A stretch of DNA of 64,000 bases. Source: Bacteroidota bacterium (GTDB lineage: Bacteria > Bacteroidota > Bacteroidia > NS11-12g > UBA955). The notes under the pieces were generated by a model. That model was given only the letters and a program-made list of their open reading frames with translations. It was not told the DNA's origin and searched no databases. Shown one piece after another: positions 49,220 through 63,954 of the stretch; the first letter of the stretch is position 1; the number at the start of each line of letters is the position of its first letter. The stretch covers positions 1 to 64,000 of the forward strand of contig JAEUUL010000015.1 of NCBI GenBank assembly GCA_016787485.1. The letters are read 5' to 3'. The translations under genes were made by a program, and so were the position numbers.

Positions 49220-49675
49220 ATGGAATTGCTTGGGCATTTTACCGTGTTGCTTGGCTTCTTCTTTCTCATGGAAGGGGTAGCCTGGTTTACACACAAATAT
49301 ATTATGCACGGCTTCGGCTGGATTTTGCACAAAAGTCATCATGAACCCAGAAAAGGGGCATTTGAACTCAACGATTTATATGGATTTATTTTTGCAATTC
49401 CCTCGGTTTGGCTCATTGTAGCAGGATCTGCTGAAATGGACTGGCGCTTCTTCGCGGGGTTGGGAATTGCCTTATATGGATTGGCTTATTTCCTGGTTCA
49501 TGATGTTTTCGTCCATCAGCGGGTAAAATGGTTGAAACGCACTCAGGTGCCTTATTTCCGGGCCATGCGCAAAACCCATCATTTGCATCATTCCGTGCAT
49601 ACAAAAGAACATGCCCAGGCTTTCGGATTTTTGTTTGTGCTGCCCAAATTTTACAGGAGGTACAGCCGTGGCTAA
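49220..49675 (+). CDS. crtZ: Beta-carotene 3-hydroxylase
   Basis: A 151-residue membrane di-iron hydroxylase that adds 3-hydroxyl groups to beta-ionone rings. The four histidine motifs are present: HKYIMH, HKSHH, HDVFVHQ and HHLHH. Three or four transmembrane helices are visible. The ATG at 49220 is used because the promoter lies between it and the upstream in-frame TTG. It overlaps crtI by eight bases. Its substrate needs a beta ring, yet no lycopene cyclase is in the window. Confidence 0.93.
   Translation: MELLGHFTVLLGFFFLMEGVAWFTHKYIMHGFGWILHKSHHEPRKGAFELNDLYGFIFAIPSVWLIVAGSAEMDWRFFAGLGIALYGLAYFLVHDVFVHQRVKWLKRTQVPYFRAMRKTHHLHHSVHTKEHAQAFGFLFVLPKFYRRYSRG
49655..49660 (+). promoter_or_regulatory. 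Shine-Dalgarno site of crtI
   Basis: AGGAGG, followed by T, sits seven bases before the GTG at 49668 and inside the crtZ tail. It decides the crtI start. Confidence 0.55.
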
Positions 49676-51149
49676 AACAGCATTGGTGGTGGGCGCAGGT
49701 CTGGGCGGTCTTGCAACGGCATTGCGGCTTCACAAGCAGGGTTACCAGGTGCAGGTGGTTGAAAAACACAGTACCGCAGGCGGCCGGCTGAACGTTTTGG
49801 AAAAGGACGGATTCCGCTGGGATATTGGCCCCTCCTTTTTTTCAATGAGCTATGAGTTCAGGGAATTGTTCGCTTATCTGGAAGAGCCCATTCCATTCGA
49901 ATTGGTTGAACTGGACCCCCTGTATGCCGTGAACATAGCGGGCAACCCCCGCACTTATCTGATATACAAAGACCTGGCCCGACTGGCTGAAGAGTTTGCC
50001 GATGTGGAACCGAATATGGAATTCAAGGCCAGAAAATATCTGGATTCTGCGGCACGCATCTTTCACGATACCGAGCATCTCATCATTAAACGCAACTTCG
50101 ATGGGATACTTTCCTATATCATGAGTCTGGCCAGGGTGCCAAAAAAACACCTGCCCAAACTTTTCCGCAGTTTCTGGACTGAACTGGAACGACATTTTGA
50201 AAGTGAAGAAGTGAAAATCATTTTCTCTCTGGTCGCGTTCTTCCTCGGTGCTACTCCATTCAATACCCCAAGCATTTACAGTTTGCTGAACTATACAGAA
50301 CTCGAACACGACGGCTACTGGAATGTGAAAGGAGGGATGTATAACATCGTCACCGGAATTCTGGAACTGATGGAGAAGAAAGGCATTGCCATTTATTACA
50401 ACACGGAAATTGTGAGCCATACCCCAAATGGCAAGGGCCTGAAATACCTGATGGATACAACAGGGAAGCAATGGCAGGCAGACCTGTTCGTCATCAATGG
50501 AGATGCTGCCGGGTTTCGCGGACAGGTATTCCAGCGCAAGAAGTACAGCGAAGAAAAACTGGACAAGATGGACTGGACCATGGCACCGTTTACCATGTAT
50601 CTGGGTGTAAAAGGCAAACTGGATAAGATCCACCATCACAACTATTATCTGGGCAACAATTTCAGGGGGTATGCCGATGCCATTTTCAGGCAGGGTGTAG
50701 CTCCGGAAAAACCTTATTACTACGTGAATGTGCACAGCAAGAGCAATCCGGAATGCGCCCCGGAAGGCCATGAGGCGGTTTTCATCCTATGCCCGGTCCC
50801 CGATTTGCGTCTGAAGCCGGACTGGTCTGATGCGGATGTGCTTGGGGATGAAATTATCAAGGATTTAAGCCAGCGCAGCGGAGTGGATATTGCAAACAAT
50901 CTCGTAAGCAAAACTGTTTATACCCCTGTGGAATGGCAGAATATGTTCAATTTGTACAGAGGCAGTGGTTTGGGTCTTGCCCATGGAATGATGCAGATAG
51001 GGGCCCTTCGTCCGGCAAATAAAGACGAGGAGTTTCCAAACGTATATTATGTGGGTGCAAGCACGCACCCCGGCACTGGTCTTCCTATCGTAGTCATTGG
51101 CAGTAAATTGGTAACTGAAAGAATTGTACATGAGCATCCACTTGTTTGA
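49668..51149 (+). CDS. crtI: Phytoene desaturase
   Basis: A 493-residue FAD-dependent desaturase that converts phytoene to neurosporene or lycopene. The dinucleotide-binding motif GAGLGGLATALRLHKQGY opens the protein, followed by GGRLNVLEKDGFRWDIGPSFF. The C-terminal GASTHPGTGLPIVVIG motif is the CrtI signature. The GTG at 49668 is set by a strong SD and by the FAD motif. It overlaps crtZ by eight bases and crtB by 20 bases. Confidence 0.94.
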   Translation: MAKTALVVGAGLGGLATALRLHKQGYQVQVVEKHSTAGGRLNVLEKDGFRWDIGPSFFSMSYEFRELFAYLEEPIPFELVELDPLYAVNIAGNPRTYLIYKDLARLAEEFADVEPNMEFKARKYLDSAARIFHDTEHLIIKRNFDGILSYIMSLARVPKKHLPKLFRSFWTELERHFESEEVKIIFSLVAFFLGATPFNTPSIYSLLNYTELEHDGYWNVKGGMYNIVTGILELMEKKGIAIYYNTEIVSHTPNGKGLKYLMDTTGKQWQADLFVINGDAAGFRGQVFQRKKYSEEKLDKMDWTMAPFTMYLGVKGKLDKIHHHNYYLGNNFRGYADAIFRQGVAPEKPYYYVNVHSKSNPECAPEGHEAVFILCPVPDLRLKPDWSDADVLGDEIIKDLSQRSGVDIANNLVSKTVYTPVEWQNMFNLYRGSGLGLAHGMMQIGALRPANKDEEFPNVYYVGASTHPGTGLPIVVIGSKLVTERIVHEHPLV

Positions 51150-51981
51150 CCATACCGCGAAGGCCATAAGCAGACGGGTTGCACTGAATTACAGTACCAG
51201 TTTCTCGCTGGGCATCCGCTTGTTGGCCAAGGAATACCGCTGGCCTGTATTTGCCATTTATGGTTTTGTGCGGGTAGCAGATGAAATTGTAGATACCTTT
51301 CATGGGCACGATAAAGCCCGGTTGCTGGCAGAATTCCGTGAGCAAACTTACCGTGCGCTGCAAGATGGAATCAGCACCAATCCCGTACTGCACAGTTTTC
51401 AGCTGGCAGCAAACCAATACAGCATTGGAAAGGATTTGATAGAGCCATTTTTTGAAAGCATGGCTGAAGACCTGAAAAAAGACAGCCATACACAGCGCAC
51501 CTACTCTGAATACATCTATGGCAGCGCAGAAGTCGTGGGCCTCATGTGCCTGAAAGTGTTCTGCAGGGGCAATCAAAAGCAGTATCAAAGTCTGGAACCC
51601 AATGCGCGCAGCCTGGGCGCAGCTTTCCAAAAAGTAAACTTCCTGCGCGACATGCGCAGCGATCTGGAAGACCGTGGCAGGGTATATTTCCCCGGTGTGG
51701 ATTTTCAGTCGTTCTCAGATGCCGATAAAATTAAAATCATACAGGATGTAAAAGCCGATTTCAAACATGCCTATGCCGGAATTGTAAGGCTGCCTGTAGG
51801 TTCCAGACTGGGTGTGTATACAGCCTATATCTATTATCTCAAGTTGCTTGAAAAAATAGAACGTACCACGGCAAGAGAAATTCTGGAGAGCCGGATCCGC
51901 ATACCCAATTCACAGAAACTGGTGCTGCTGGCAAAAAGCTATGTGAAGGAAAAGCTGATGCACGCTGCGATATACCTGTAA
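51130..51981 (+). CDS. crtB: Phytoene synthase
   Basis: A 283-residue enzyme that condenses two geranylgeranyl diphosphates to phytoene. The first Asp-rich motif is DEIVD (residues 51-55) and the second is RDMRSD, with Asp174 and Asp178, in NFLRDMRSDLEDRGRVYFP. The length is normal. It overlaps crtI by 20 bases. With crtZ and crtI it forms a three-gene operon; GGPP synthase and cyclase are absent. Confidence 0.95.
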   Translation: MSIHLFDHTAKAISRRVALNYSTSFSLGIRLLAKEYRWPVFAIYGFVRVADEIVDTFHGHDKARLLAEFREQTYRALQDGISTNPVLHSFQLAANQYSIGKDLIEPFFESMAEDLKKDSHTQRTYSEYIYGSAEVVGLMCLKVFCRGNQKQYQSLEPNARSLGAAFQKVNFLRDMRSDLEDRGRVYFPGVDFQSFSDADKIKIIQDVKADFKHAYAGIVRLPVGSRLGVYTAYIYYLKLLEKIERTTAREILESRIRIPNSQKLVLLAKSYVKEKLMHAAIYL

Positions 51982-54268: not shown

Positions 54269-57172
54269 ATGGAAGGATTAAGAAGAGTTCTCTTCTTGTT
54301 TCTATTGTTGGGGGGATGGATTTCGGCGCAAGCCGGTACATATTACGTGGACGGCGATTTCGGGGATGATGCCTGGAATGGTCAGGCTGCCTCTTATGTG
54401 AGTGGGACCATTGGTCCTAAGAAGTCCATTGGTGCTGCCCTTGCAATAGCAAACGACCTGGATCAGATCCAGATTCTTGGCGGTAACTATTCCGAGTGTC
54501 TTTTTATTACAAAAACCCTTTCCCTCGTTTTATCCGGCAATAGCTCTGTGAAGTGTCTGGTGATGAATGGGGTAGGCAAAAGGCTGAGTCTTACCGGCAG
54601 CGAACTCTCCATTCTGGATTCACTGGTGTTGCGTCGCGGCTGGATAGATGCCTCTCTGGCCAATCTCGTAGCCGTACCCTCTTGTAAGGTCTCAGGTGGC
54701 GCACCCGCCAGTTTTGTAGAAGGACGTTTGTACCGGGCGAACACACTCACATCCGTTTCCGACCTGTATTTCCCGGTTGGCGCAGGCAAAGATTTCCGGC
54801 CTGTTTTCCTCAGTTTTAGTCAGAATACCACTGCCACAAACCGCTATTCCGCACAGGCATCTCAGGCAGCATTGCCTCCAATAGGGGTGCCGGCCGGCAT
54901 TAAGAATATCTCCAAAGTTCATTACTGGACCCTGCGGGTAACCGGCTCTGCCGTTTCAAGTGGTTTCGATATCAAAGCACAATACGACAGTGGCGCGCTG
55001 GACGATGAAGTGATTGATCCTGTGAATCTGCGGTTGTTACTGAAGTATCCTGGAAGAAATGATTTCCACAATTTGGGAGGCACAGGCACAGCCAAATTCC
55101 GGGGAACCATTACATCCACAGTAAAAACGGATACATTGGGTAGTTTAACCCTTGGAAATGTGTTTGGCGGACTCAATTCCCTTGGTCGCAAAGAGCCTGT
55201 TCCCAGATTTGTACCCAAAGGCAAGTGCGTGGGCAGTCCTGTGCAGTTTCTGGATTCCTCTTTTTCCTACAAGAGCAATATCACAAAATGGTCCTGGAAT
55301 TTTGGTGCCCCGGGCAATGCCGATACGGCCAATGTTAAGAATCCTTTCTGGACTTACACTTCCACCGGACCCTTCTTTGTTACCCTTTTTGTAACCAATA
55401 ATCTGGGCTTTACCGATTCTTTCGGCAGGTGGATTACCCTCAGACCAAGACCCAATTCGGCCTTCTCATCTACCGACGCCTGCTTCAAGAATCCACAGAA
55501 TTTTTCAGACCTGAGCACCGCTGCATCGCCAGACACGATTAAAAGCCGCACCTGGTTTTTGGGCGATGGAAATACACGCACCCAAAAGACATTTACCTAT
55601 ACCTACGCTTTTACCGGCAGTTACAATGTGCGGCTGGCAGTGGTTTCTGGCAGTGGCTGCACAGACACATTGCTGAAAAAGGTCAACGTGTTTGGCAAAC
55701 CTGCACCCAATATGGCATTTACCGGTATTTGTCTCGGTCAGGGCACTTTGTTTCAGGGTGCAGGCGGCACTTCCGGCGATACGGTTTCCGGCTGGGAGTG
55801 GTATGTGGATGGTGCCTTTGCCAACAGTTCCAGAAATTTCAGCAGCACACTTACATCGGCAAAAAATTATGCTGTGCGTCTGTCGGTCATTTCTCAGAAT
55901 GGTTGCCGGGATACTGTATTCCGCACCCTCACCATATACAGGCCCCCGTCAGCCCGGTTTGATCTGGACTCAGCAGTGCCTGGCAATACCGGGATTCAGT
56001 GTTTCCGCAACAACCGGTTTACCATGAAAAACAAGTCGGTCACCTATCAGGGACAGACCATGACCCCACAGTTTTTCTGGGGTAGTAACGGTATACCCGG
56101 CAACAATCAGTTCAGCTCTTCCGAACAGGGGGTGTTGCCGGTAAAACTGCTGGTAACAAGCGATATGGGTTGCCGTGACAGCATGATTAAAAACTATCTG
56201 GTGCGCGATTCCATTTTGCTGAAATACTCAGTAGCAACCTACTGCCTGCCTAAACCTGCTACGTTTTCAGATTCCAGTACAGCAGGTTCTGCAACCATTG
56301 TATCACGGATATGGAGGTATGGAGATGGCAATATCGGTACCGGTGTTCAGTCCTCCTATGTTTACCCGAATGGCGGGTATTATATTGTATGGTTGAAGGT
56401 AACCACCAATGAAGGCTGCACAGACAGTATGACCCAGGCCGCATTTGTTACAAATCAGCCCACAATCAATGTGAGTATCACCGGCAGAAACCCCATGTGT
56501 CCGGGAGACAGCGTGAAGGCGAAGGTAACAGGAGGCAATTTTGTGCGCTGGGGAGATCAGGATACAAACCGGGTTCGTTGTTTTTCCACTGCCGGCAAGT
56601 TTTTTGTGAATGCTTACACAAGTGCTTTCTGCAGTGTGGGCGACAGCGTGGAAACCACGATTCTTCCGCCGGTTTATGCCGATGCCGGGCCGGATACATC
56701 ATTGATCCGCGGCCGGTACATCATTTTAAAGGGTGATGGAGGTGTAAAATTCGAATGGACGCCCAAAAGTCAGGTGAGTACTCCGGACTCTGCCCGCACA
56801 AGGGTAAAGCCACAGACCAGCACTACATATTATCTCAAAGTAACGGATGCCAATGGCTGCACAGATACAGACAGTGTCCGCGTAAAAGTGATTGAACCGC
56901 TTTTCATACGCATACCCAATATGATTACACCCAACGGGGATGGAAAAAATGATGCCTGGGATTTGCGTGAAGTGCCAAATGTGGAAACAGCCCGTGTGAC
57001 CATTTTCTCATCTACCGGAGAGGTAGTCTATGTGCAGGAAAGTGGCTGGGACCACACCTGGTCAGGTACCGGAACAAATGGGGATAAACTTAAATCCGGA
57101 ACCTATATGTTTGTAATCGAAGTTCCTACTGAAAAGGAACCATTTAAGGGCTATTTGCAGATTATGAGATGA
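54269..57172 (+). CDS. Large PKD-repeat cargo protein with T9SS type B sorting domain
   Basis: A 967-residue secreted protein with a signal peptide (VLFLFLLLGGWISAQA). The N-terminal ~120 residues (YYVDGDFGDDAWNGQ and the following repeated strands) resemble the DUF1565 beta-helix start. Four PKD-like domains follow between residues ~330 and ~760 (WSWNFGAPGNADT, RTWFLGDGN, WEWYVDGAF, WRYGDGNIG). An Ig-like stretch precedes the C-terminal type B domain: ITPNGDGKNDAWDL, then FSSTGEVVYVQ and GTYMFVIEV. PKD arrays and this sorting signal are typical of gliding adhesin-like proteins. Its stop overlaps the start of the PorP/SprF-like gene by four bases. Confidence 0.9.
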   Translation: MEGLRRVLFLFLLLGGWISAQAGTYYVDGDFGDDAWNGQAASYVSGTIGPKKSIGAALAIANDLDQIQILGGNYSECLFITKTLSLVLSGNSSVKCLVMNGVGKRLSLTGSELSILDSLVLRRGWIDASLANLVAVPSCKVSGGAPASFVEGRLYRANTLTSVSDLYFPVGAGKDFRPVFLSFSQNTTATNRYSAQASQAALPPIGVPAGIKNISKVHYWTLRVTGSAVSSGFDIKAQYDSGALDDEVIDPVNLRLLLKYPGRNDFHNLGGTGTAKFRGTITSTVKTDTLGSLTLGNVFGGLNSLGRKEPVPRFVPKGKCVGSPVQFLDSSFSYKSNITKWSWNFGAPGNADTANVKNPFWTYTSTGPFFVTLFVTNNLGFTDSFGRWITLRPRPNSAFSSTDACFKNPQNFSDLSTAASPDTIKSRTWFLGDGNTRTQKTFTYTYAFTGSYNVRLAVVSGSGCTDTLLKKVNVFGKPAPNMAFTGICLGQGTLFQGAGGTSGDTVSGWEWYVDGAFANSSRNFSSTLTSAKNYAVRLSVISQNGCRDTVFRTLTIYRPPSARFDLDSAVPGNTGIQCFRNNRFTMKNKSVTYQGQTMTPQFFWGSNGIPGNNQFSSSEQGVLPVKLLVTSDMGCRDSMIKNYLVRDSILLKYSVATYCLPKPATFSDSSTAGSATIVSRIWRYGDGNIGTGVQSSYVYPNGGYYIVWLKVTTNEGCTDSMTQAAFVTNQPTINVSITGRNPMCPGDSVKAKVTGGNFVRWGDQDTNRVRCFSTAGKFFVNAYTSAFCSVGDSVETTILPPVYADAGPDTSLIRGRYIILKGDGGVKFEWTPKSQVSTPDSARTRVKPQTSTTYYLKVTDANGCTDTDSVRVKVIEPLFIRIPNMITPNGDGKNDAWDLREVPNVETARVTIFSSTGEVVYVQESGWDHTWSGTGTNGDKLKSGTYMFVIEVPTEKEPFKGYLQIMR

Positions 57173-58572
57173 AGAGACTATACGCGGTTGTTGTTTTGGG
57201 ATTATTGGTGTTTGGAACCGCGATGGGGCAGCTGGCCAGCAGGATTGACCAGTACTATCAGGATTTCTCTATAATCAACCCTGCAAGCATCAATGCTTCT
57301 TATAACTCAAGGCTTAGTCTGTTTTACAACCGCCTGTATACCGCTATACCGGGCAGCCCGAACAACATCTTTGCATCTGTTGTTTTGCCAAATCCGGATA
57401 AACGAATTGGTTTTGGCGCCAACTTCGGTCAGGAACGCATCGGTTTTTCCACATTGTATAACGGCTATATTACGTATGCCTACACCATGCCATTTACAAG
57501 CCGCAGCCGGTTGCATACCGCAGCTTCTCTGGGACTGCTCACCCAGCGGTTCAATCCCAATGCCATTGATGTAATCAATCAGGACGATCCATTGTATCTC
57601 TCGTTACAGCAGGGTCGTCCGGAAACCCGATTTGACCTCAAACTTTCTGCCTGTTTTCAATCCGGAGGGTTTCAGTTCGGTATCAGCAGCGGGCGCATCA
57701 CACGACCCCGTTTTGCGTTCGACTATTACACCTACCGCAGCAATTATTACCTTGATAATCTCAGCAGTGTATACACATCTTTCAGGATGAAGGTATCAAA
57801 TGATATCATTCTGCAACCTGTGGCAGTGGCAAATGTGTTTGACTGGCGTGAACTTATGTTGCAGTGGGGTGTAAATATGCATCTGCGCGACGTGATGTGG
57901 GTAGGCCTCCATAGTGCCGGCAATAAAAACCTTTCTGTACATGTAGGCGGACAGGTGAAAAATACCATACGTATCGGCTATTCCTACAGCATGCCATTTT
58001 CTGCCAGTTCCAAGTTGCTTGGATCCGGTCATGAATTCTACACCGCCATATTGCTGGGTAAAACCGAAAACCTGATCAAGGGCATGTCCGAAGACGCAAT
58101 TTTACTCACCAAACTGCACAATGACACCACTGCTGCTGATTACAATACGGATATTGAAAAGCCGGTGCGCAAGCAGAAAAAGGGACAGGAAGAAAATCAG
58201 GAAAAAGAAACTTACAAGGTTGAGTCTATCAAAATGAGCAATGACACCATCTTCATCAATTCATTTGAAGAAATGAAGGTATTGCGTTTTGGCTATGACA
58301 CAGCCAAAATTGCACTGCATGATATACCACTGGCTCAGCCTCAGGAAGGGTATTATGTTACTGTGGGCGTGTTTAAAAATGAGGCCAACGCCAACAAGCA
58401 GGTAAAAATCATGTATGCCAAAGGCATTACCTCCTTCAAATTCTACCTGCCTGAGAATAAATATTATTACGTTTACATTTTCCGTGGAGAAACCCCTGAA
58501 GAAGCCGATGAGGTAAAATGGCAGGAGCAGCTTGAGATTCCGGACATCTGGACCAAGCGCATCCATCGCTAG
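57169..58572 (+). CDS. PorP/SprF-family protein with C-terminal SPOR-like domain
   Basis: A 467-residue outer-membrane protein. After the signal peptide (residues 1-20) the PorP/SprF domain fills ~20-300, including the opening YYQDFSIINPASINASYNSRL that the family shares. PorP/SprF proteins pair with type B cargos and help deliver them through T9SS. Usual members are about 300-350 residues. This one adds a charged linker (~325-355, RKQKKGQEENQEKE) and a segment at ~392-455 whose sequence (GYYVTVGVFKNEANANKQ, then KYYYVYIFRG) closely matches SPOR domains, which bind peptidoglycan. The start overlaps the stop of the cargo gene (ATGA). Confidence 0.88.
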   Translation: MKRLYAVVVLGLLVFGTAMGQLASRIDQYYQDFSIINPASINASYNSRLSLFYNRLYTAIPGSPNNIFASVVLPNPDKRIGFGANFGQERIGFSTLYNGYITYAYTMPFTSRSRLHTAASLGLLTQRFNPNAIDVINQDDPLYLSLQQGRPETRFDLKLSACFQSGGFQFGISSGRITRPRFAFDYYTYRSNYYLDNLSSVYTSFRMKVSNDIILQPVAVANVFDWRELMLQWGVNMHLRDVMWVGLHSAGNKNLSVHVGGQVKNTIRIGYSYSMPFSASSKLLGSGHEFYTAILLGKTENLIKGMSEDAILLTKLHNDTTAADYNTDIEKPVRKQKKGQEENQEKETYKVESIKMSNDTIFINSFEEMKVLRFGYDTAKIALHDIPLAQPQEGYYVTVGVFKNEANANKQVKIMYAKGITSFKFYLPENKYYYVYIFRGETPEEADEVKWQEQLEIPDIWTKRIHR

Positions 58573-60651: not shown

Positions 60652-61668
60652 TTGAATCTCACCCTGCTGTTAAGTACCATTTCAGGATGCAGTCTTGGCG
60701 CCGTTGTTTTTTTGCGGCTGGCTCAGAAATACGGATTGCATGACCATCCCAATGGCCGCAGTTCCCACCGGCAACCTACCGTAACGGGCATGGGAATCAT
60801 TGTGGTACTGGGTTTCCTCATTTACCTCCTTTGGCAACCCTTTGAACTGCAGGCCAATTTTGTAATCGGATTTCTGCTCCTCACCACCATTTCATTTATC
60901 GATGATATCTATTTTCTGAAGCACAGTTTCAGGCTGTTTTTTCAGGTGCTCGCCATGGCATTTATGGTACTGCAACTCCCGTTTCAGAGTTCCGGTCTGG
61001 AAGCGATGGTGCTCGGCTCTGCTGCCGTCATATTTGGGGTGGGAGTGCTCAATGCCTACAATTTCATGGACGGTGTGAATGGCATGCTAACCCTGCATGC
61101 CCTGCTGGTATTGGGTTGTTTGCTGTATCTGAATGAGACCCTGACTGATGCTGCAGGGCAGGCCATTCAATTCACAAACAGCAATTTCATCATTGCCATT
61201 ATTGTGCCCATGGCCATATTTGGTTTTTTTAATTTCCGGAAACATGCACTGGCCTTCATAGGAGACGTGGGTAGCATTGGTATTGCCTTCATTACGGTTT
61301 ACCTAATGTATTCTCTTTTGTTGCATACAGGAAACTACACCTATCTCCTGCTATTCTGTATTTTTGGGGCGGATGCCGGTTTGACCGTGATATACAAACT
61401 CATTCTCCGTGAGAATATTTTTGTGCCGCACCGCGATTTCCTGTTTAAGAAAATGGCTCATATTGCGCGGGTACCGCACCTTAGCATCAGTATTTACTAC
61501 TTCCTTGCTCAGTTGGTCATTAATCTGCTGGTGCTGTTTGCTTTCCCCAAAACACCCAAACTGAGCACACAAATGGCGCTGCTTTTCATCATCGTAGTGG
61601 CCATGGTGGCCGTATACATCTATTTTCAGAATGAGTTTGCCCGCCGCAAATCAGGCAGGCAGAAGTAA
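60652..61668 (+). CDS. WecA/MraY-family glycosyl-1-phosphate transferase
   Basis: A 338-residue polytopic enzyme (about 10 helices) that transfers a sugar-1-phosphate to undecaprenyl phosphate. Family motifs: FIDD, NAYNFMDGVNGM, FIGDVGSIG, and the cytoplasmic HRDFLFKKMAH. It starts a surface-glycan lipid intermediate, probably UDP-HexNAc dependent, but the sugar cannot be told. The start is TTG; no better codon exists near it. The 3' end overlaps the convergent cruF gene by 18 bases. Confidence 0.9.
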   Translation: MNLTLLLSTISGCSLGAVVFLRLAQKYGLHDHPNGRSSHRQPTVTGMGIIVVLGFLIYLLWQPFELQANFVIGFLLLTTISFIDDIYFLKHSFRLFFQVLAMAFMVLQLPFQSSGLEAMVLGSAAVIFGVGVLNAYNFMDGVNGMLTLHALLVLGCLLYLNETLTDAAGQAIQFTNSNFIIAIIVPMAIFGFFNFRKHALAFIGDVGSIGIAFITVYLMYSLLLHTGNYTYLLLFCIFGADAGLTVIYKLILRENIFVPHRDFLFKKMAHIARVPHLSISIYYFLAQLVINLLVLFAFPKTPKLSTQMALLFIIVVAMVAVYIYFQNEFARRKSGRQK

Positions 61669-62292
61669 ATTTCCTGCCCAAAGCAGTCCGAAAAAAGCAG
61701 CTTGTATCCAGAAAAGTTTTGCTGCAACAGGGTTTTTCACCGGTTTTCCATATCGCTGATACAGAAAGTGGAACATTCCACTGCAAATGAACCAGGCTAT
61801 GTAATTCTGCATGGGTATGGTTCCGTTATCCCATTGCCAGAAATCATATGCGATGGCAGATGGTTCCAACAGAAAATCGTACAAGGTCATAAGTAAGGCA
61901 CCTATCAGCGGAGCAATGGGATATTTGGCCCATTTGTGCATTACAGCCTGACTGTAATAAACCATGGCCGCCCAGTTCAGTCCAATCAACCACGGAATAC
62001 CCTGCCAGCCCGGCCCCAAAGTAGCACCATAATGGTATCGGCCAAACAGCAAACCGGTATGGACCCCTGCGTATTCAATAAAGAATCCCATTGCAGCCGT
62101 AACAAGTAAACAAACCACAGATCCCCGATCCCATTTTGGATGCAGAAACAGAACCAATATAAGACTGCCGGCTATGGAAAACGGAGTGACTGCGATAAAC
62201 CAGGGTCTGCTTACCGGCCACAGATAACCCCCAATGCCCACTGTGTAGAAAACACAGAAGAGGAGAGGGATATGTTTTTTGTTCAATTTCAT
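61651..62292 (-). CDS. cruF: Carotenoid 1',2'-hydratase
   Basis: A 213-residue integral membrane protein, about six to seven helices, of the DUF422 carotenoid family, with FIEYAGVHTGLLFGRYHYG and GLNWAAMVYYS and the conserved DFLLEPSAIAYDFW. CruF-type enzymes add water to the psi end of an acyclic or monocyclic carotenoid, giving a 1'-hydroxyl. The ATG at 62292 (MKLNKKH) overlaps the TGA of the upstream crtD (ATGA). Substrate assignment is by family and neighbour, not by direct evidence. Confidence 0.8.
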   Translation of the reverse strand: MKLNKKHIPLLFCVFYTVGIGGYLWPVSRPWFIAVTPFSIAGSLILVLFLHPKWDRGSVVCLLVTAAMGFFIEYAGVHTGLLFGRYHYGATLGPGWQGIPWLIGLNWAAMVYYSQAVMHKWAKYPIAPLIGALLMTLYDFLLEPSAIAYDFWQWDNGTIPMQNYIAWFICSGMFHFLYQRYGKPVKNPVAAKLFWIQAAFFGLLWAGNLLLPA

Positions 62293-63758
62293 GTTTTGTT
62301 TTCGGGAATCAGGTTTGCCACAATTCTGGCCCCGAGCAGACAAAGGGGTATCCCACCTCCGGGATGGACTGATCCGCCACAGAAATACAACCCCTTCACC
62401 GCGGAACTGAAATTGGCCTGTCTGAAGAAGGCCGCCATGCGGGAGTTGCTGCTTGTGCCATAAAGACTTCCTTTGTTGCTTCCGGTGCGGGATTCGATGC
62501 GAACCGGGTCCAGGTAATCCTCATAATCGATGAGGGGTTCAATATCACAGCCCAATTGCGCAGATAGTTTTTTCAGCACGCTTGAACGGGTGCGTTTCCG
62601 CAGTTCTTCCCAGTCCTGACCTGTATTGGCAGGGGCATTTACCATTACAAACCAGTTTTCGCATCCACGCGGAGCATCTACCGGTATTTTTTTCGAGGTG
62701 ATGTTGATATATACCGTTGGGTCGTCAGTAATGTTTCCCTCGTTGAAAAGCAAATCGAACTCTTTTTCATAATCGGCGCTGAAGAATATGTTGTGCACAT
62801 CCAATTCCGGAAAATCACGACGAACCCCCCAGTAAAAGATAAGTGCCGAACTGCTGTTTTCTGCCTTTTGTATCCGGCCCGGTACCGGAAGATTAAGCAG
62901 GCGGGTATAGGTAAGTTTCGCATCTATGCCGGAAACCACCACATCTGCTTCCAATTCCTGTCCGGAGTGGGTGCGCACGGATTGAATGCGTTTGTTCCGG
63001 GTGATGATCTCAGCAACTGCGCAATTGAGGCGAATCTCAACCCCCAGACTTTCGGCTTTTTTCACCAGTACGTCTGTGATATCCTGCATGCCTTTTGCAG
63101 GCAGCCAGGCTCCCAAACTGTATTCAAGGTGCGAAATTACATTCAGCGTTGCCGGTGCTTTGTATGGATTGGAGCCATTGTAGGTTGCGTATCTGTTAAA
63201 GAGTTGTACCGTTTTCGGATTTTTAAACCATGTCCGGTTTGCCTTGTCCATGCTGCGCAGCATATCGATGCGCCAAAGGTTTAATATTCCGCGAAAGCCA
63301 TTTTTACTGAAATAAGTGCGCAGTTTGTGCAGTGAATTCTCCAGGAATACCGGACTGGTGATACCATAAACGAGTGCGCTTTTGTTCAGATAAGCTTTCA
63401 CCCTGTGGCGGTCTTCACCGAGTTTTGAGCTGATAAGTAAGGCCAGCGCATCTCTGGATGCAGGGGTTTGGAGTTGCGTACCATCCGGATAGAAGTAATG
63501 GCATACCGGGTCTAGTGCCAGCACATGAAACCCGGAGCTCAGATCATCAGTGCCCATTTTAAGCAGGTCGTAAACCAACTGCGGCAGGGTAAACAGAGAG
63601 GGACCGGCATCAAACCTGTAACCCTTTTCGGTAAAAGAGGTGAGCTTCCCTCCGGGATATGACGCAGCTTCAAGCAATTGTACCGAATGACCTGCTGCCG
63701 CAAGCCGGATGGAAACTGCCAGACCGGAGACCCCGGCTCCGCAAACGATGACCTTCAC
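62289..63758 (-). CDS. crtD: Carotenoid 3',4'-desaturase (CrtD-like)
   Basis: A 489-residue CrtI-superfamily FAD enzyme. The FAD motif VKVIVCGAGVSGLAVSIRLAAAG opens the protein and GGSVHPGGGIPLCLLG closes it. Its order with cruF, and the sequence distance to the CrtI encoded at 49668, make CrtD (3',4'-desaturation of a 1'-hydroxy carotenoid) the best reading. The GTG at 63758 is chosen because it begins right at the FAD motif; the open frame continues upstream to 63932 but with nothing domain-like. It may instead be a CrtI paralogue of another desaturation specificity. Confidence 0.82.
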   Translation of the reverse strand: MKVIVCGAGVSGLAVSIRLAAAGHSVQLLEAASYPGGKLTSFTEKGYRFDAGPSLFTLPQLVYDLLKMGTDDLSSGFHVLALDPVCHYFYPDGTQLQTPASRDALALLISSKLGEDRHRVKAYLNKSALVYGITSPVFLENSLHKLRTYFSKNGFRGILNLWRIDMLRSMDKANRTWFKNPKTVQLFNRYATYNGSNPYKAPATLNVISHLEYSLGAWLPAKGMQDITDVLVKKAESLGVEIRLNCAVAEIITRNKRIQSVRTHSGQELEADVVVSGIDAKLTYTRLLNLPVPGRIQKAENSSSALIFYWGVRRDFPELDVHNIFFSADYEKEFDLLFNEGNITDDPTVYINITSKKIPVDAPRGCENWFVMVNAPANTGQDWEELRKRTRSSVLKKLSAQLGCDIEPLIDYEDYLDPVRIESRTGSNKGSLYGTSSNSRMAAFFRQANFSSAVKGLYFCGGSVHPGGGIPLCLLGARIVANLIPENKT

Positions 63759-63825
63759 AAGGCAAAAGAACAATACAGAGGCTGGAAATGTTGGATATAA
63801 CCATAAAAAATCCGCATCAAACCGG

Positions 63826-63833
63826 TATATTTG
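63826..63833 (+). promoter_or_regulatory. Possible upstream -7 box before the last gene
   Basis: TATATTTG matches TAnnTTTG and reads toward the partial gene at 63955. I see no -33 partner, so it is weaker than the box at 63919. Confidence 0.3.
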
Positions 63834-63896
63834 CACTGTACAGAGCATACGTTGAGATGCCCGGGGCAAATTTTTCAAAAAAAAACTAAAAACCCC

Positions 63897-63926
63897 TTGC
63901 AATTTTCTGAGATGGTTGTAATTTTG
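63897..63926 (+). promoter_or_regulatory. Promoter of the last gene
   Basis: TTG at 63897-63899, a 19-base spacer and TAATTTTG (63919-63926). The ATG is 28 bases downstream. The 196-base gap from 63759 contains this and one weaker box. Confidence 0.65.
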
Positions 63927-63954
63927 CGCCACATTTAATCAGGAAGTAAACAAA

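Follow-up and report, generated by a model that had tools for sequence, protein, structure and literature searches.

Adhesins of type B that are exported by the type IX secretion system (T9SS) have to be held at the cell surface, and how this is done has only recently been understood: either they are placed on a moving track via the cysteines of SprF or they are retained by a proposed static PorE anchor. In Porphyromonas gingivalis, PorP holds the type B cargo PG1035 and forms a complex with PorE, a lipoprotein that binds peptidoglycan through its OmpA-type domain and is thought to bridge the peptidoglycan to PorP and its cargo (PMC9143113). In Flavobacterium johnsoniae, where cognate cargo-carrier pairing has been shown, a cargo encoded with its carrier and a PorE homologue is static, and anchoring by the PorE homologue was proposed (PMC12618676). 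In SprF, the C-terminal tail carries a Cys-X-Cys motif and is attached by a disulfide bond to GldK, a component of the movement track (PMC12635249). Here we analyzed a stretch of 64,000 nucleotides from a Bacteroidota bacterium (contig JAEUUL010000015.1, positions 1 to 64,000; hereafter the window), which contains a type B cargo gene immediately followed by the gene of a PorP/SprF carrier that ends in a SPOR domain.

Like PorP-PorE-PG1035 of P. gingivalis (PMC9143113), this locus combines a PorP-like barrel with a type B cargo, and it would likewise be connected to peptidoglycan. There, however, the wall contact is a separate lipoprotein of OmpA type, whereas the window has a SPOR domain within the carrier. 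The Fjoh_3952/3951/3950 system of F. johnsoniae also pairs a cargo, which was seen to be static, with an SprF-like cognate carrier, and a wall anchor has been proposed there too, but that anchor is a PorE homologue encoded downstream and not a domain of the carrier (PMC12618676). SprF itself, also a cognate carrier for type B cargo, has a periplasmic C-tail that is functional and bears Cys-X-Cys (PMC12635249); the window tail has no cysteine, as is the case for all but one of 32 tails compared, and has a SPOR domain instead. Judged from its sequence by this cysteine criterion, the window carrier is not a track carrier of the SprF type. The nearest precedent is the Legionella type II secretion system secretin LspD (as described in PMC9239104), in which a SPOR-like domain is also fused to an outer-membrane secretion component, although of another secretion system and at the N-terminus of the secretin. 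The SPOR domain of Pseudomonas aeruginosa RlpA (PMC6895207) has the fold in common with the window tail, but its Gln and Arg glycan-contact residues are not kept. No report of a PorP/SprF-SPOR fusion was found in the open-licence literature searched; domain databases may well show this architecture. The features of the locus are the following:

54269-57172, + strand: type B T9SS cargo of 967 residues with a signal peptide, an N-terminal region without Pfam match, several PKD domains and a C-terminal CHU_C domain
56906-57163, + strand: CHU_C type B secretion signal of a private subtype (NDAWDL ... KGYLQIMR, no NRWG motif), assigned by a hidden Markov model (HMM) of SPOR-linked C-terminal domains (CTDs)
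57169-57172, + strand: ATGA, the 4-nt overlap of cargo stop and carrier start in the sequence
57169-58572, + strand: PorP/SprF carrier with SPOR tail, 467 residues, assigned by Pfam and TIGRFAM profiles
57235-58056, + strand: 14-strand PorP/SprF barrel, residues 23-296 (PF11751 over 23-291, AlphaFold2 strands 47-296, Foldseek)
58120-58242, + strand: disordered charged linker, residues 318-358, with an AlphaFold2 predicted local distance difference test (pLDDT) score below 50
58249-58341, + strand: short conserved pre-SPOR element, residues 361-391 (D377 invariant, T378 conserved)
58342-58569, + strand: SPOR domain, residues 392-467, in the order beta-alpha-beta-beta-alpha-beta (PF05036, AlphaFold2, PDB fold matches, hhalign)

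The carrier is a PorP/SprF barrel with a SPOR tail

The window carrier is assigned to PorP/SprF by profile cut-offs (PF11751: 1.1e-29, 104.2 bits versus a cut-off of 22.3; TIGR03519, model length 292: 132.8 bits versus 90.55), by its 14-strand barrel and by the adjoining cargo with a type B CTD. The AlphaFold2 model, calculated from 36 sequences comprising the window protein and its relatives, predicts a FadL-like barrel, which Foldseek matched to FadL and to the T9SS carrier chains 8gl6_F and 6h3i_F of solved complexes. As the number of strands is even, the N- and C-terminal ends of the barrel, including the tail, would both face the periplasm and thus the cell-wall side. The carrier exceeds tailless carriers (~300-350 residues) by ~120-165 residues, close to the ~120-150 given in an initial annotation made from the sequence alone, which had also described a charged linker followed by a SPOR-like region at residues ~392-455.

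This region was recovered by several profile comparisons. Pfam SPOR matched residues 392-449 of the carrier at 5e-07 (30.4 bits versus a gathering cut-off of 21) and the tail scanned alone at 2.9e-08. An HMM of Bacteroidota SPOR domains other than carrier tails scored 23.6 bits on the tail, the best of 2000 shuffles reaching 9.2, and hhalign of the tail against other Bacteroidota SPOR domains gave 96.9%. The tail is predicted to fold into beta394-402, alpha405-417, beta423-427, beta432-440, alpha443-451 and beta461-465 with pLDDT mostly ~85-92; folded alone, it reached a pLDDT of 89 and a predicted template modeling score of 0.84. Sequence searches of the PDB with the whole carrier and with the tail profile returned nothing usable, and matches were obtained by fold search alone. 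Foldseek ranked the SPOR domain of CwlC first (probability 1.00) and that of DedD second, with RlpA, FtsN and DamX within the top 16. VIA-align returned six chains at Z 4.3-8.7, with 6ozd (BPSS2145) as the best and remaining rows from 3.8 down; five of the six are known SPOR structures (CwlC, RlpA twice, DedD and DamX). Superposition on P. aeruginosa RlpA SPOR with VIA aligned 72 residues at Z 6.3 and a root-mean-square deviation of 3.7. The tail is therefore a SPOR domain by a profile score over the cut-off and by a predicted fold of ~75 residues, with the four strands and two helices that the initial annotation had named as the structural check.

SPOR-tailed carriers are conserved within the order

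A profile scan of named genomes yielded 38 loci, and the tail was kept in 37 of 37 with a near-complete gene. In all 37, the gene immediately upstream ends in a type B sorting domain, the gap being mostly 1-12 bases depending on the ATG chosen. None of the outcomes named in the initial annotation as refuting it (lack of a SPOR hit, a fold unlike SPOR, loss of the tail from close homologues) was encountered. D377, K413, K424, Y434, V435 and W461 are invariant across the 32 tails compared. A chance match or artefact as the source of the tail was ruled out by the shuffling result together with the near-complete relatives, and its occurrence in relatives and same-order genomes likewise disposes of a one-genome oddity. 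The window genome itself holds a second SPOR-carrier operon on contig C16, whose carrier is 32% identical over its length.

Within the order, SPOR-tailed carriers occur in most genera of the window's family (f1) that have a match. They are found in a second family (f2), too, where they are of several kinds, with matches up to 1.1e-12 (L172); among them are long PorP/SprF carriers of ~650-690 residues (L178-L182), in which the middle part is extended (weak TSP3 match) and the C-terminus is a SPOR-like domain, L180 ending in SPOR. Other f2 carriers (L036, L037, L039, L186 and L191) end in a domain of the OmpA peptidoglycan-binding type (1e-20 for L036) and adjoin type B cargos, as does L137, a carrier of 594 residues from another family with an OmpA-type end. 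One OmpA-tailed carrier has thrombospondin type 3-like repeats in its linker.

Outside the window's order, carrier tails are rare. A sample of 148 genomes from across the phylum gave, outside the window genome, 98 carrier matches that passed 1e-25, only one of which spans the tail (G105, L115, SPOR 7e-09); most carrier open frames in this sample measure 300-350 residues. The best candidates per genome were scored and more distant barrels left out, and since the query profile includes the SPOR tail, tailed carriers are favoured in this count. In a tree of carriers, the SPOR carriers of f1 group at 100/100, and the tailless carriers of f1 join those of other families at 98/94; deep branches are weak and the long rows L008, L009, L115 and L140 are placed unsurely.

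SPOR tails and PorE neighbours exclude each other

A PorE-like neighbour was defined as an OmpA-containing gene of ~630-730 residues directly downstream of the carrier. Such a gene follows 17 of 23 tailless carriers, namely all three of the window's family and 14 of the 20 of other families, and none of the 49 SPOR-tailed loci examined (Fisher p = 7e-12, uncorrected for relatedness and overstating the weight of the contrast, because the loci are related by descent). The contrast nevertheless goes beyond taxonomy alone, since it is seen within the window's family, where two of the three genomes with a tailless carrier and a PorE-like gene also hold SPOR-tailed carriers. A small OmpA gene of 220 residues, 238 bases away from the SPOR-tailed carrier of L056, was not counted as PorE-like, and at a few loci (e.g., L043 and L045) little sequence is left downstream, so that the absence is weaker there. 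The window carrier itself gave no OmpA match in the Pfam scan and lacks the PorE-type combination of OmpA, TPR and beta-propeller.

Tailless carriers (L204-L226) with a PorE neighbour mostly end in S/T-P-R-Y/F-F, and several without PorE end in CPKAFW/CTNRFW or other motifs; these last residues may be a docking signal.

The carrier is probably paired with its own cargo

As initially described, the upstream gene encodes a PKD-rich type B cargo (PKD_4 7.6e-34 in 4 stretches, CHU_C 1.6e-20), for which the start ATG was picked by the signal peptide MEGLRRVLFLFLLLGGWISAQA. The ATGA overlap suggests that cargo and carrier are translationally coupled. The window genome has 36 CHU_C matches, 32 of them above the cut-off, versus only four PorP/SprF genes. 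When its CTDs were scored with the HMM from the relatives' SPOR-linked CTDs, the two SPOR-linked cargos reached 136 and 97 bits (97 for the window cargo) and the best unlinked CTD 54, so that the private subtype comprises 2 of 28 CTDs. An NRWG-like motif, present in 25 of these 28, is absent from the cargos of all 37 relatives. This private subtype beside SPOR-tailed carriers fits the cognate pairing of F. johnsoniae (PMC12618676), and the best reading is that the window carrier is dedicated to the PKD adhesin encoded directly upstream.

The other two carriers of the genome are tailless and, by sequence inspection, adjoin a PorU-like gene and a gldKLMN-like cluster. Two of the four carriers have their own cargo and there are ~32 type B cargos in all (contigs C1-C41); one or two carriers must therefore serve ~30 cargos. 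The tailless carrier by the PorU-like gene (L008:4022-5077) ends in WCVPPGRHVFKPLRCPEF, with two cysteines well apart rather than the Cys-X-Cys of SprF; a link to the track is possible. Carotenoid-type genes flank the operon (49611-51981 and 61651-63932) and were recognized on inspection as phytoene desaturase- and synthase-like, a second desaturase-like gene and a CruF-like membrane protein.

Proposed wall anchoring in cis and alternative roles of the tail

We consider it fairly probable that the tail acts as a PorE-type anchor in cis and keeps carrier and adhesin immobile against the cell wall. As with other PorP/SprF carriers, the barrel would accept its type B cargo from the T9SS translocon and remain attached at the surface to the sorting domain, while the disordered linker would hang the SPOR domain into the periplasm, where binding to cell-wall glycan would fix carrier and adhesin in place. 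One chain would thereby do the job of PorP and the separate lipoprotein PorE. The exchange with PorE and the OmpA-tailed siblings lend indirect support to a contact between tail and cell wall. By analogy to PorP-PorE, the earlier proposal that cargo delivery is tied to the wall is better read as surface anchoring of the cargo after secretion.

Several observations weigh against this anchoring role. In the structure of RlpA with glycan, most contacts are made by the main chain, and Gln270 and an Arg patch add side chains (PMC6895207). Across 32 tails, the position of RlpA Q270 is Val in 30, Thr in one and Cys in one, R309 is Tyr in all 32, R311 is Tyr or Phe and F274 is mostly His; the canonical denuded-glycan site (Gln in beta1, Arg in beta3) was not found in any of them. 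Gln is also absent from 9 of 12 sampled SPOR domains of other Bacteroidota genomes (one of the nine, L201, being the tail of the L115 carrier), and its loss therefore weakens glycan binding without excluding it by itself. Pfam SPOR at E up to 1 matches only 8 of 15 family members, and the tail of the C16 paralogue, at 16.3 bits, falls just under the cut-off of 21. The PorE-exclusion pattern comes from related genomes, and an unlinked PorE-like protein is encoded on contig C7 of the window genome (repeat region, propeller-type repeats and, by inspection, OmpA), so that the genome retains an anchor in trans.

Septal targeting would mean that the tail finds the division septum by its denuded glycan and that the adhesin is shown at septa and young poles, rather than being anchored generally. 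We regard this as somewhat unlikely, even though denuded glycan, which is enriched at septa, is the ligand of the SPOR domains whose function is known (PMC6895207) and most of the Bacteroidota SPOR domains sampled also lack the Gln. In one MAFFT alignment, which we take only as a lead, two tail positions, the invariant W461 and K/R463, align with W416 and K418 of DamX, both linked to glycan binding, but hhalign of the tail with DamX alone gave no support for this (probability 2.2%). A Cytophaga hutchinsonii SPOR domain is reported to be found at the septum in E. coli. However, the RlpA-site Gln, both beta3 Arg and usually the Phe are replaced in the tails, and OmpA-tailed siblings would not be expected to go to septa. 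Of the initial proposal that the SPOR domain contacts denuded peptidoglycan, the wall contact is upheld indirectly; specific binding to denuded strands is not supported, the RlpA contact positions being replaced. The same loss of the canonical site, the family-specific invariants D377, K413, K424, Y434 and W461, the extra conserved element before the domain and several SPOR-like tails near or under the Pfam cut-off would fit a domain that has given up glycan binding and serves as a protein docking module, whose partner could be the GldK/GldN hub, GldJ or some other periplasmic protein. This appears quite improbable, as the L115 tail and some f2 tails are ordinary SPOR domains well over the cut-off, and docking would predict neither an exchange for OmpA nor the absence of a PorE neighbour.

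A broader and unlikely extension is that type B carriers are addressed by their C-tail as by an exchangeable label, the options being no tail but a PorE gene, OmpA or SPOR in cis, and Cys for the moving track. The SPOR class would then send the adhesin to sites of wall remodeling; if true, surface display would follow the cell cycle.

For anchoring in cis, a carrier with its own domain of the wall-binding type, whose relatives have no PorE neighbour, amounts to natural-experiment evidence that static wall anchoring is the purpose of PorE-type partners. The one-chain system lets this idea be tested, and it suggests that the carrier tail may suffice to predict if an adhesin is mobile or static.

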